A stretch of DNA of 64,000 bases from Thioalkalivibrio paradoxus ARh 1 (GTDB lineage: Bacteria > Pseudomonadota > Gammaproteobacteria > Ectothiorhodospirales > Ectothiorhodospiraceae), in assembly GCF_000227685.2 (NCBI RefSeq), contig NZ_CP007029.1:904501-968500 (forward strand), read 5' to 3'. Under the pieces are notes generated by a model. The model worked only from the letters and a program-made list of their open reading frames with translations, made no database searches and was not told where the DNA came from. Shown in pieces: positions 17,841-22,830 of this stretch (the stretch's first letter is position 1; every line of letters starts with the position of its first letter). The position numbers and the translations under genes are program-made.

Positions 17841-18425
17841 TCAGGCGGATTCCCTCCCGGCCTCGGCGGACCTGCGCGAGGGCCGCGGCGCCTCGATCGG
17901 CGAGGGGGACGGCTGCGCCCAGCGCCAGTCCCGGATGTCGCGGTGCAGCGGGACCATCTCGATGCAGTCCACCGGGCAGGGTTCCAGGCACAACTCGCAG
18001 CCGGTGCATTCGCTCTCGATCACGGTATGCATCTGCTTCGCCGCGCCGACGATCGCGTCCACCGGGCAGGCCTGGATGCACAGCGTGCAGCCGATGCAGG
18101 TGTTCTCGTCGATAACCGCGACGGCCTTTTCGCGCGCCTCGGCCTCCAGCGGCTTCGGGTCGCGGCCGAGCAGGTCGGCCAGCGCCAACACCGTGGCCTC
18201 GCCGCCCGGCGGACAGTGGTTGATGTCCGCCTGGTTCCCGGCGATGGCCTCGGCGTACGGCCGGCAGCCGGGATAGCCGCACTGCCCGCACTGGGTCTGC
18301 GGCAGCAGCGCGTCGACCTGGTCCGCGATCGGATCCCCTTCGACGCGGAAGCGCTGCGCGGAATAGCCCAGGATCAACCCGAAGGCGGTGGCGAGGCCGG
18401 CGATGGTCAGGATGGCGGCGAGCAT
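17841..18425 (-). CDS. rsxB: Electron transport complex subunit RsxB/RnfB
   Basis: A 194-residue iron-sulfur subunit with an N-terminal membrane anchor, a CGQCGYPGC-containing four-iron cluster domain, and two ferredoxin-type clusters ([12 protein letters not shown] and [12 protein letters not shown]). It takes electrons from ferredoxin, or delivers them to it, depending on the direction. It lies 2 bases after rsxA. Confidence 0.96.
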
Positions 18426-18427
18426 CG

Positions 18428-19006
18428 CTAGAGGCGCACCAGCCCGTAGAAGCCCATGAACCCGAGTGACATCAGGCCGGCAGTGATCATCGCGATGGCG
18501 CTGCCGCGGAACGGAGCGGGAACGTCGGCGGCGGCGATGCGCTCGCGGATCGCGGAGAACAGGATCAGCACGATGGAAAAGCCCACCGCAGCGCCGAAAC
18601 CGTACAGAGCCGATTCGACGAACCCGTGCGCTTCCTGCACGTTCAACAGCGCGACGCCGAGCACTGCGCAGTTAGTGGTGATCAGCGGCAGAAAGATGCC
18701 CAGCACGTTATAGAGCAGCGGGCTGGTCTTGTGCACGACCATTTCGGTGAACTGGACCACCGCAGCGATCACCAGGATGAAGGCGATCGTGCGCAGGTAT
18801 TCGAGCCCCAGCGGGATCAGCAGGTATTCGTTGATCAGGTAGCTGCTCACCGCCGACAGCGTCAGCACGAAGGTGGTAGCCAGGCCCATTCCGGTCGCCG
18901 TCTCCACTTTCCGGGACACGCCCATGAACGGGCACAGGCCCAGAAACTTCACGAGCACGAAGTTGTTGACCAGGATCGTGCTGATGAGGATCAGGGCATA
19001 TTCCAC
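18428..19006 (-). CDS. rsxA: Electron transport complex subunit RsxA/RnfA
   Basis: A 192-residue six-helix membrane subunit related to NqrE, with [18 protein letters not shown] and [14 protein letters not shown]; both cysteines are conserved. The GTG at 19006 gives the family length and has GGAATT upstream; a TTG at 19033 would add nine residues and is less likely. First gene of the operon rsxA-B-C-D-G-E-nth. The complex couples ferredoxin/NADH electron transfer to ion movement and in E. coli keeps SoxR reduced. Confidence 0.95.
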
Positions 19007-19179
19007 GGCAATTCCGAGTGGGTAGCTCAACAATAGTATCGGCCAGCCCGCAGGCCGGGCTCAACCCGGCGTCCTGCGTGCCTATTCCGGGATTGCCCCG
19101 GGAGTCCAAGGGGATGGCCACCCTGGCCCCGCACCGGTAGGTGCTGCCCGGGGTCTCGCTCCGGGCGCTACCCGTGATT

Positions 19180-19872
19180 CTAATGCATCGGGTCGGCGCG
19201 GAGGTCCAGTTCCGTGAAGTCGGCGGCGGTTCGATGGTTCCCGACCGGCCCGTGCATGCCCTCGCGCAGCACGGCAGCCGTTGCCATGCGAACCTGTGCC
19301 GCAGCATCCAATTCCTCGGGGAGGTCCGACAGGAACAGAATCCGCTCCGGCAGAAGGTCGATCTCGGCAGCAATGCGGCGGTAGCTGTCGGCGTCGCGCT
19401 TGCCCCCGATTCGGGTGTCGAAGTGCCCGGAGAACAGCGGGGTCAGGTCGCCTGCCGCGGTGTGTGCAAACAGCAGCTTCTGGGCGTGGACCGACCCCGA
19501 CGAGAACGCGTACAGGCGAATCCCGGCCTGTGCCCAGCGCTGCAGGCTTTCGGGAACATCGGGATAAACGTGTCCGTGGAAGTGGCCCTGGCGATAGCCG
19601 TTTTCCCAGATCAGGCCCTGCAGGCTCTTCAGCGGCGTGATTTTCTGATCGGCCACGATCCATGCCCGCATCCGCTCGACCAGCGCGTCGTCGTCCAGGT
19701 CGCCACCGGCATAGGCGCGCGCATCTGCCAGCAGCCGGGCGACCTCGGGCACGTTCCGGTGCCTGCGCACGTAGTCCCCGAGGTGCTCGGCCGCATACGG
19801 AAACAGCGTGTCGTGGACAAACGAGAGGCTGGTCGTGGTGCCCTCGATGTCCAGCAGCACCGCACGAATCAC
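19180..19872 (-). CDS. mtnC: Enolase-phosphatase E1 (acireductone synthase)
   Basis: A 230-residue HAD-superfamily enzyme of methionine salvage that enolises and dephosphorylates diketo-methylthiopentyl phosphate to acireductone. The nucleophile motif is LLDIEGTTTSLSFVHDTLFPYA; the motif II serine lies in YAFSSGS and motif III in KRDADSY and LFLSDLPEE. A GTG start at 19872 overlaps the stop of the preceding 39-codon frame (GTGA). Its product is normally the substrate of MtnD, whose gene is nearly absent here. Confidence 0.94.
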   Translation of the reverse strand: MIRAVLLDIEGTTTSLSFVHDTLFPYAAEHLGDYVRRHRNVPEVARLLADARAYAGGDLDDDALVERMRAWIVADQKITPLKSLQGLIWENGYRQGHFHGHVYPDVPESLQRWAQAGIRLYAFSSGSVHAQKLLFAHTAAGDLTPLFSGHFDTRIGGKRDADSYRRIAAEIDLLPERILFLSDLPEELDAAAQVRMATAAVLREGMHGPVGNHRTAADFTELDLRADPMH

Positions 19873-19988
19873 GACATCGGTCCGGGGGGCTGGCCCCGTG
19901 TCGGAAAGCGCCGGATGATGCCGGCCGGGTCGGCAACGCGGGCGCACGGGTGCGGGTCGGTGTCCGGGTATGCGTGGAGCGTGGTCAT
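19869..19988 (-). pseudogene. mtnD: Remnant of acireductone dioxygenase gene (mtnD)
   Basis: A 39-codon frame whose ATG overlaps the mtnB stop (ATGA) and whose TGA overlaps the mtnC start (GTGA). It opens MTTLHAYPDTDP, resembling the start of MtnD proteins (M-S-x-L-x-x-Y), followed by a segment ending GIIRRFPTRGQ that can be aligned with the start of MtnD around the EDI-x6-G region. The ~145 residues carrying the metal-binding histidines and glutamate are missing. The order mtnB-mtnD-mtnC is common, so this looks like a gene reduced by an internal or 3' deletion that kept both translational overlaps. Assignment rests on position and a short match. Confidence 0.55.
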
Positions 19989-20608
19989 GGGCTCAGCCTC
20001 CTGGAGAGGATCTCGCACTCGAACAGGAACTCGAAGGCCTCGACGTGCTGCACTGCCGCTTCCACCGAGCGCCCCCAGGTGTAGAGCCCGTGGCCGCTGA
20101 CCAGGTAGCCGGAGACGCCGGGGTGCCGGTTCATGTGGTCGTCCACCTGGGCGGCCAGCTGTGGCACGTCGTGGGTATTGGGGAACACCGGGACATGCAG
20201 CGAGGTCTCGTCGGACGTGATTGCGGGAAACGCTTTGAGCACCACGTAGTCGCTCAGCGTGAGGCCGTAGGGGAGCAGCCGGGACAGCACCGTCGCGTTT
20301 GCCGAGTGGGTATGCAACACCGCCCCGATGCTCGGGTCGCGCCGGTACATGATGATATGCAGGAAGGTTTCGGCGGACGGCGTCTTTCCGGGCGACAGGA
20401 TGTTGCCCTCGAGATCGACCACCATGAACCCGCTGTCGTCCAGATGCCCCTTGTGGCGCCCGGAGACGGTGATCACGATCTGCTCCTCGTTCAGGCGCGC
20501 GGAGAAGTTTCCGGCGGTTGCGGGCACCCATCCGCGCTGCGCAAACAGCCGGCCGGCGTCGGCGAGAAGCCGCACCTGCGCCTTGTATTCCAGGGAATCT
20601 TCAATCAT
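19985..20608 (-). CDS. mtnB: Methylthioribulose-1-phosphate dehydratase
   Basis: A 207-residue class II aldolase-fold zinc enzyme that dehydrates methylthioribulose-1-phosphate in methionine salvage. Zinc ligands are the HTH of LHTHSANAT and the histidine in GYLVSGHGLYTWG; TAGNFSARL and SGRHKGHL are family substrate-loop motifs. The ATG at 20608 gives normal length. It is the first of the three overlapping mtn frames. Confidence 0.94.
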   Translation of the reverse strand: MIEDSLEYKAQVRLLADAGRLFAQRGWVPATAGNFSARLNEEQIVITVSGRHKGHLDDSGFMVVDLEGNILSPGKTPSAETFLHIIMYRRDPSIGAVLHTHSANATVLSRLLPYGLTLSDYVVLKAFPAITSDETSLHVPVFPNTHDVPQLAAQVDDHMNRHPGVSGYLVSGHGLYTWGRSVEAAVQHVEAFEFLFECEILSRRLSP

Positions 20609-20778: not shown

Positions 20779-22830
20779 CTACTTCACGCGCATGCCGGGT
20801 TGGGCACCCTCGTCGGGGGCGAGCAGGAACAGATCCCCGCCGCCCGGGCCGGCTGCGAGCACCATCCCCTCGGAAACGCCGAAGCGCATCTTCCGCGGTG
20901 CCAGGTTCGCGACCATCACCGTCAGCCGGCCCTCGAGATCCTCGGGCCGGTACGCCGAGCGGATGCCGGCGAACACCTGGCGACGCTCCGTGCCCAGGTC
21001 CAGCGTCAGGCGCAGCAACTTGTCCGCGCCTTCGACGTATTCGGCGGCTGCGATGCGGGCGATCCGCAGGTCGACCCTGGCGAAGGTTTCGAAATCGATG
21101 GTGTCGGCAATCGGGTCCATGGCGGAAGCCTCTTCGGCGCGGGGTGGGGATGTGGGTGCCGTCGGTGCCAGACTGGAACTCGAGGCCGCCAGCAGTCCCT
21201 CGACCGCAGCCGGCTCGATCCGGGTCATCAGGGGTTGATAGGGCTGGATGCGGCCGCCGGTCAGCGGCTGTGTGCGCGACGCCCAGTCGAGTTCGGCGCG
21301 GTTCAGGAACGTGCCGGCGCGGGTCGCCAGCCGCGGCAGTACCGGTGCCAGATAGATCACCAGGATCCGGAACAGGTCCAGCCCCTGGGTGCAGATCGCC
21401 TGCACCTCGTCGGCGCGCTCGGGGTCCTTTGCCAGCACCCAGGGCCGGGCCTCGTCGATGTACTGGTTGGCCTGGTCGGCCAGCGCCATGATCTGGCGCA
21501 TCGCCTGGGCGTATTCGCGGGCTTCGTAGAGTGCCGCAATCTCGTCGCCTGCCGCCGCGAACTGCGCGTGCAGGTCGGGGCGGGGCAGGGTGTCGGCGAG
21601 CTTCCCGTCGAAGCGCTTGGTCAGGAATCCCGCGCAGCGGCTGGCGATGTTCACCACCTTGCCGACCAGGTCGGCGTTCACGCGCTGCACGAAGTCGTCC
21701 AGATTCAGGTCGATGTCGTCGACGCCGGCCCCGAGCTTGGCCGCGAAGTAGTAGCGCAGCGCCTCGGGGTTCAGGTGGTCGAGGTAGTCGCGGGCGCGGA
21801 TGAAGGTGCCGCGGGACTTGGACATCTTCTGGCCGTTCACGGTCAGGAAGCCGTGGCAGAACACCGCGGTCGGTGTGCGGAAGCCCGCGCCGTGCAGCAT
21901 CGCCGGCCAGAACAGCGTGTGGAAGTAGGCGATGTCCTTGCCGATGAAGTGGTACAGCTCGGTGTCTGAATCCGGGCCCCACCAGGCGTCGAAATCGAGG
22001 CCCTTCAGTTGCGCGTAGGCCTGGAAGCTGGCCATATAGCCGATCGGCGCGTCGAGCCAGACATAGAAGAACTTGCCCGGCGCGTCGGGGATCTCGAAAC
22101 CGAAGTAGGGCGCGTCGCGCGAGATGTCCCAGTCCGCGAGGCCGGCCTCGAACCACTCGTTCAGCTTGTTGCGGATCGCGCTCTGCAGGCGCCCGGAGCC
22201 GGTCCAGTCGCGCAGGTAGTCCTCGAAGTCGGCGAGGCGGAAGAAGTAATGCTCGGAATCGCGCGCGACCGGCCGGGCCCCGCTGATCGCCGAGACCGGG
22301 TCGATCAGGTCCGTCGGGCTGTAGGTCGCGCCGCAGACTTCGCAGGAATCCCCGTACTGGTCGGCTGCGCCGCAGCGCGGGCAGCTGCCCTTGATGAAAC
22401 GGTCGGGCAGGAACATCCCCGCCTCGGGGTCGTAGGCCTGTTGAATCGTGCGCACCGAGATGTGGCCGCCAGCCTTCAGGCCCTCGTAGATCCGGGTTGC
22501 GCAGGAGCGGTTCTCTTCCGAGTGCGTGCTGTGGTAGTGATCGAAGCCGACCAGGAACTCGGCGAAATCGGCCTCGTGCTCGGTGCGGACCCGCGCGATC
22601 AGTTCCTCAGGCTCGATACCTTCGGCGCGGGCCTTCAGCATGATCGGCGTGCCGTGGGCGTCGTCGGCGCAGACGTAGATCGCCTCGTGGCCGCGGGCGC
22701 GCTGGAAGCGGGCCCAGATGTCGGTCTGGATGTACTCGACCAGGTGTCCCAGGTGGATCGGGCCGTTCGCGTACGGCAGCGCACTGGTGATCAGGATCCG
22801 GCGCGGGGTTGGGGGATCTACGGGCGTCAT
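20779..22830 (-). CDS. metG: Methionyl-tRNA synthetase
   Basis: A 683-residue class I aminoacyl-tRNA synthetase. HIGH motif reads PIHLGH (residues ~24-29), KMSKS is present in [12 protein letters not shown], and a single zinc knuckle CPRCG...CEVCG lies near residue 145. A flexible Ser/Ala/Pro linker near residue 560 leads to a C-terminal tRNA-binding domain ([11 protein letters not shown]...). Start chosen at MTPVDPP, in front of [14 protein letters not shown]. It is divergent from apbC. Confidence 0.97.

Follow-up and report, generated by a model that had tools for sequence, protein, structure and literature searches.

The methionine salvage gene mtnD of Thioalkalivibrio paradoxus ARh 1T has been destroyed by a single in-frame internal deletion of 441 nt, and the 39-codon frame that now lies between mtnB and mtnC is its scar. 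The scar is real and well supported, and it is part of a wider pattern of loss. Comparison of genomes suggests repeated loss of the mtnD step within the family, often with the neighbouring genes left in place. The best explanation, to which we assign a probability of about one half, is that salvage in these bacteria is no longer closed through acireductone, that methylthioribulose-1-phosphate is instead cleaved by an aldolase (MtnB and/or a FucA-like enzyme), and that the 39-residue frame is left as a scar.

T. paradoxus is a sulfur bacterium of soda lakes. The window, a stretch of 64,000 nucleotides, belongs to a T. paradoxus genome (G000) of 3,756,729 bases in a single contig. On its minus strand metG is followed by mtnB, the 39-codon frame (read as MTTLHAYPDTDPHPCARVADPAGIIRRFPTRGQPPGPMS and a stop codon), mtnC, and a cluster of genes that we take to be rnf-like, the first of them presumably rnfA-like (Table 1). 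The initial annotation, made from the letters of the window, had described the frame as a stub of mtnD overlapping both neighbours; this observation is confirmed, and the full-length mtnD of five relatives bears out that the gene is really lost. The stub matches no Pfam or NCBIfam model at E<=1. It fails the MtnD family model, PF03079, and the metal-ligand cupin core is absent from it; the EHTHSEDEVR stretch of the relatives' MtnD, in which we take the metal ligands to lie, falls within the missing codons. A profile search of the whole T. paradoxus genome with PF03079, a check that the initial annotation had proposed, found no MtnD.

Table 1. Features of the mtnB-mtnC locus, in window positions.
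Feature	Position	Strand	Basis or remark
mtnD deletion scar (39 codons + stop)	19869..19988	-	position and both ends compared with relatives
Scar part from 5' end of mtnD	19911..19988	-	junction uncertain within about 13 nt
Scar part from 3' end of mtnD	19869..19910	-	comparison with relatives' mtnD
ATGA overlap mtnB/scar	19985..19988	-	4 bases shared
GTGA overlap scar/mtnC	19869..19872	-	4 bases shared
mtnB, methylthioribulose-1-phosphate dehydratase family	19985..20608, ATG at 20608	-	TIGR03328 and alignment to 2irp and human APIP 4m6r
MtnB codon 122, GTG = Val	20243..20245	-	Glu in 32/37 MtnB rows
mtnC, enolase-phosphatase, HAD motifs intact	19180..19872, GTG at 19872	-	TIGR01691 and residue census
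metG, upstream neighbour, basis of species tree	20779..22830	-	source of the MetG tree
rnfA-like gene (name presumed), downstream neighbour	18428..19033	-	counterpart directly after metG in G016

MtnD (PF03079) was found in six of the 30 genomes of the genus. For five of these (G003, G017, G019, G023 and G025) a single retrieved locus holds both mtnB and mtnC, and the 553 nt that separate the two are occupied by a 186-codon mtnD overlapping each neighbour by 4 bases, so that the look at this position in sister genomes proposed by the initial annotation turned out in its favor; the contig of the sixth, G022, begins inside mtnD. The mtnB-mtnC distance is 112 nt in T. paradoxus and in genome G002, leaving 441 nt, or 147 codons, missing. 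The stub corresponds approximately to the first 26 codons of mtnD joined in frame to the last 13. Its C-terminal end, which the earlier reading had not traced, is also derived from MtnD (GIIRRFPTRGQPPGPMS, compared with GIARRFPMLDELPGPAS in G003), and because both ends match, the event was an internal deletion rather than a truncation; position and both ends together establish descent from mtnD. An assembly error, which had been named as a possible refutation, is ruled out, since the same 441-nt deletion occurs in G002, a second genome in one contig (4,002,350 bases), whose stub is identical to that of T. paradoxus at 36 of 39 residues. Excerpts of PMC4653848 name T. nitratireducens as a close relative of T. 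paradoxus. A MAG labelled Thioalkalivibrio paradoxus (L122, JAABSC010000003.1) has an intact mtnD; its species label is doubtful because its MtnC is only 77% identical.

The best junction falls after stub nucleotide 78 for three of the five relatives and at nucleotides 65-67 for G003, with a tie between 65 and 78 for G023. When 12 nt from one deletion end are set against 12 nt from the other, G017 shows 10 matching positions; 6 of 8720 compared pairs match that well, and a deletion between short imperfect direct repeats is therefore plausible; agreement is only 6 to 9 of 12 in the other four intact relatives.

The order as sampled comprises 47 genomes of one family. MtnD was found in 12 of them and MtnC, above its NCBIfam cut-off, in 23, and 12 of the 23 have no MtnD: T. 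paradoxus, G002, nine of the ten members of the Ectothiorhodospira group (g2), and Thiorhodospira (G046). The tenth member of that group, G036, has neither protein. As a control, we took the best 80 of 124 confirmed named MtnC loci, 16 of them from the family, with flanks of up to 3 kb. An mtnD lies within the flank in 72 of these 80; among those outside the family, it lies within 3 kb in 63 of 64. The eight exceptions are six Ectothiorhodospira loci, Thiorhodospira sibirica and one MAG (CP070641.1). In Thiorhodospira the 3-kb flanks of mtnC showed no mtnB either.

A midpoint-rooted MetG tree was built from 41 of the 47 genomes, MetG being missing or fragmentary in G017, G020, G021, G022, G026 and G027. 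It places about five losses of mtnD, at the scar pair, the G016/G018 group, a 15-genome clade of Thioalkalivibrio, the Ectothiorhodospira group and Thiorhodospira. The count depends on a single gene tree in which a node next to the scar clade has weak support (0.31), and four losses are possible. Within the 30 genomes of the genus, six have mtnD and mtnC (five with mtnB in the locus), two have mtnB, scar and mtnC, and 15 have mtnB with an mtnC whose product lacks catalytic residues, while G018 has mtnB without mtnC and in G016 metG stands directly before the rnfA-like gene. These states are a comparison among living lineages, not a single line of descent. Five genomes were left unclassed, namely G020 (58% complete), G021 (66%), G024, G026 and G027; the last three had been considered as complete-loss genomes and were dropped, metG beside the locus being cut off (G024) or unassembled. 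Literature searches on methionine salvage in Thioalkalivibrio and Ectothiorhodospira, and on enolase-phosphatase pseudoenzymes, showed none of these losses in titles or abstract openings.

The two genes that flank the scar pass their family models. T. paradoxus MtnB scores 216 bits against TIGR03328 (cut-off 137). Its zinc-binding histidines, H99, H101 and H173 in the window protein, are kept in 37/37 aligned MtnB rows; Glu80, kept in 35/37, aligns with an Asp of AraD and is presumably the equivalent of FucA Glu73 and DrdA Glu76. Residue 122 aligns with a Glu of human APIP (4m6r), which we take to be the catalytic Glu139, and is Val only in T. paradoxus and G002. The statement of the initial annotation that MtnC makes acireductone here is consequently not supported in that form, because Val122 in MtnB may keep the substrate from arising. 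In two other loci, L108 and L109 (G035 and G034), MtnB has Glu80 replaced by Gly and Glu122 by Asp, with the zinc histidines retained; the start of MtnC in G035 is identical to that of Ectothiorhodospira mobilis (L194).

The window MtnC scores 250 bits against TIGR01691 (cut-off 128.1) and keeps the HAD residues D8, E10, the SSGS motif, K158 and D183. Between T. paradoxus and G002, dN/dS is 0.10 for MtnB and 0.17 for MtnC. Both genomes also encode a second mtnC (L031 and L032, 1501-2178 on the minus strand; G000:C1:2682262-2682921), 51% identical to the first, with intact catalytic residues and a dN/dS of 0.09 between the two; neither mtnB nor mtnD was noticed among its neighbours in T. paradoxus.

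The MtnC of the 15-genome Thioalkalivibrio clade (L015-L029) is different. Its gene follows mtnB at -4 to +47 nt, and the protein shows 36-42% identity to MtnC and scores 91.7-106.1 bits, below the cut-off in 15/15. D8A, S124G, S127P and K158R are present in all 15, D183 is changed in all 15 as well, and E10 is kept in all 15; among the other 25 MtnC rows, which include the two second copies and leave out a G027 fragment, D8, S124, S127 and K158 are kept in 25/25 and D183 in 24/25. Every frame of this dead mtnC and of its mtnB is nevertheless intact. For both MtnB (0.016-0.377, median 0.255) and the dead MtnC (0.072-0.71, median 0.25), dN/dS stays under 1 in 105/105 pairs, with values of 0.03-0.14 and 0.085-0.33, respectively, in nine close pairs. 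The medians among intact members of the genus are 0.076 for MtnB (10/10 pairs) and 0.159 for MtnC (7/10 pairs, three lying outside the dS limits), and those of Ectothiorhodospira are 0.277 and 0.338 (36/36 pairs each); pairs in all such sets are non-independent, and the ratio may be pushed up by deep pairs. Selection on mtnB and mtnC looks weaker, but not absent, where mtnD is missing. The dead MtnC of G006 is predicted by AlphaFold2 with a mean pLDDT of 95, its nearest solved fold being human enolase-phosphatase E1 (TM-score 0.84 by query length). As judged from these sequences, the MtnC of the 15-genome clade behaves like a retained non-catalytic protein.

Our preferred reading concerns the fate of methylthioadenosine (MTA). 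MtnP and MtnA would convert it to methylthioribulose-1-phosphate, which a class II aldolase activity would split into DHAP and a methylthio-aldehyde, with 5-deoxyribulose-1-phosphate cleaved likewise. Two candidates for this activity, alone or together, are MtnB, a dehydratase that belongs to the aldolase family, and a FucA-like enzyme present in most of the genus. MtnC would be a leftover or have a secondary role, becoming a non-catalytic protein beside MtnB in one clade. The reading is favored by the presence of MtnP, MtnA and the FucA-like enzyme, by the retained zinc histidines and Glu80 of MtnB together with its Val122, by the catalytic residues lost from MtnC in the 15-genome clade, and by literature on side activities of MtnB-type proteins. 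MtnA matches occur in 29 and MtnP matches in 28 of the 30 genomes of the genus, each in 23/23 of the near-complete ones, T. paradoxus included; the FucA-like aldolase (E<=1e-30) occurs in 27 of 30, being missing from G019 (99% complete) and G023 (79%), both of which have the full mtnBDC, and from G020. In plants, DEP1, a fusion of MtnB and MtnC types, has aldolase activity on 5-deoxyribulose-1-phosphate (excerpts of PMC6079011), MtnB can be a promiscuous aldolase (excerpts of PMC8102628), and MtnP-MtnA-Ald2 functions aerobically in R. palustris (excerpts of PMC5893883). As to other outlets, the T. paradoxus genome has no FucI, so that no fucose route is seen, and a single match to RuBisCO-large (PF00016), a model that does give a hit in B. 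subtilis, and thus no MtnW-like protein for the MtnW route or the MTA-isoprenoid shunt.

Several observations weigh against the aldolase outlet. MtnC of the scar genomes keeps its catalytic residues and its low dN/dS, and a second intact-looking MtnC would be needless for a pure aldolase outlet. The FucA-like protein lies under curated cut-offs (245.9 of 400.25 bits for TIGR01086, 263 of 264 for PRK08087), no model named Ald2 is among the matches listed for it (25 of 29), and it is only a candidate for the role of Ald2. G003, G017 and G025 have both this aldolase and the full mtnBDC. The higher median dN/dS of the D-less groups (0.25-0.34, against 0.08-0.16 in intact ones) also fits slow decay. 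The idea that an Ald2-like outlet underlies every loss was rejected: in the Ectothiorhodospira group and Thiorhodospira the FucA-like aldolase was found in 0/11 genomes, and therefore cannot explain their losses.

The main rival, which we regard as possible yet well short of probable, is that MtnB and MtnC still yield acireductone, and that spontaneous oxidation by O2 replaces MtnD, forming the methionine precursor slowly. Acireductone, as the initial annotation also says, oxidises without an enzyme. The intact catalytic residues of MtnC in both scar genomes, their second MtnC, and the dN/dS values for MtnB and MtnC in this pair all speak for it, as does the life of T. paradoxus as an obligate aerobe at pH 8.5-10.5 (excerpts of PMC4653848); excerpts of PMC3698126, PMC6302742 and PMC8102628 contain no statement on enzyme-free oxidation of acireductone. 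Against it, Val122 of MtnB may stop the supply of substrate, a related D-less clade has an MtnC without catalytic residues, and D-less mtnBC also occurs in Ectothiorhodospira. Members of that genus are mostly anaerobic phototrophs.

Mere decay of the locus, with mtnD lost first and functionless mtnB and mtnC following, would account for the raised median dN/dS of the D-less groups and for the graded states found in one genus, from full mtnBDC through scar with Val122, dead MtnC, and mtnB only, to nothing. We consider it unlikely, since in the 15-genome clade the frames of mtnB and the dead mtnC are intact with every pairwise dN/dS below 1, and the dead MtnC of G006 is confidently predicted to fold. 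It is more improbable still that some protein unrelated to MtnD oxidises acireductone; this would account for mtnBC persisting without mtnD in several lineages, but no such gene lies between mtnB and mtnC, which are at most 47 nt apart in the 24 D-less pairs that carry no scar.

The least credible reading gives the 39-residue frame a working role as a small protein or leader. In its favor is the low divergence of the frame between T. paradoxus and G002 (4 substitutions in the 117 nt of its 39 codons, below the silent-site divergence of 15% in mtnB and 28% in mtnC). Against it, the substitutions comprise 3 amino-acid changes and 1 silent change, the low divergence extends over about 400 nt, silent sites of mtnC codons 1-57 included, as a recombination tract would, and the frame is seen in two genomes only with no family match. 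Divergence is 0-4% per 100 nt over about window positions 19701-20100 (from the last part of mtnB through the scar into mtnC), compared with 5-22% over much of the other sequence scanned, and mtnC differs at 1 codon among codons 1-57 versus 44 among codons 116-205. This stretch resembles a recombination tract or the effect of a constraint on the DNA, and offers no support for a peptide; other 100-nt segments that likewise drop to 0-3%, such as 18001-18100, 18401-18600 and 20301-20500, argue against the tract. The few substitutions in the stub were dropped as proof of selection because the low-divergence stretch surrounds it. Given this stretch, recombination may have carried the scar from one of the two species to the other, and the selection recorded on mtnB and mtnC in this pair therefore need not all postdate the deletion. 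A comparison of the stub with plasmids gave no match.

The initial annotation had further proposed that the overlaps were kept to preserve translation of mtnC. This found no support: the same 4-base overlaps occur in the five intact relatives and are ancestral, and an internal deletion preserves them anyway, so that their retention is no sign of purpose. Only the in-frame character of the deletion, expected by chance in 1 of 3 cases, could reflect selection. Spacing between mtnB and mtnC in other D-less lineages is -4 to +2 nt in 17 of 24 pairs (with start codons chosen by script), and given this tightness, selection for coupling of the two genes is possible.

Compared with canonical aerobic salvage (MtnP-A-B-C-D-E), T. 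paradoxus likewise has mtnP, mtnA, mtnB and mtnC, and the order mtnB-mtnD-mtnC is likely the ancestral state; it differs in that MtnD is a scar with no PF03079 protein elsewhere, and in the Val that its MtnB carries where most rows show Glu. With the DHAP shunt (MtnP/MtnA/Ald2) of R. rubrum, R. palustris and some E. coli it shares mtnP, mtnA and a FucA-type class II aldolase, but its aldolase gene is distant from mtnA and mtnP. The family may, more tentatively, have repeatedly rebuilt salvage as an oxygen-independent outlet, in which MtnB would act as the aldolase that cleaves methylthioribulose- and 5-deoxyribulose-1-phosphate, MtnC would in one clade have become its non-catalytic partner, and the T. 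paradoxus scar would be an early step. A second job of MtnB as aldolase and the role of the dead MtnC are both testable. One genus thus displays living states of a linear pathway coming apart, in which the oxygen-using step is gone, the next enzyme is disarmed but kept, only mtnB is left, or nothing remains. Excerpts of a review (PMC6302742) call MtnD ubiquitous among organisms that live in the presence of oxygen, and the obligate aerobe T. paradoxus, without MtnD, stands against that statement. The presence of mtnB and mtnC in a genome does not prove methionine salvage.

Plant DEP1 resembles the locus in combining MtnB-type and MtnC-type proteins; here the two are separate, and in one clade the MtnC partner is without catalytic residues. 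Human enolase-phosphatase E1 (1yns/1zs9), the best fold match of the G006 protein, differs from that dead form, which is without D8, the SSGS motif, K158 and D183 (window MtnC numbering). The G027 fragment (L240, 6357-6740) has an MtnC-like start that runs into unrelated sequence near a contig end.
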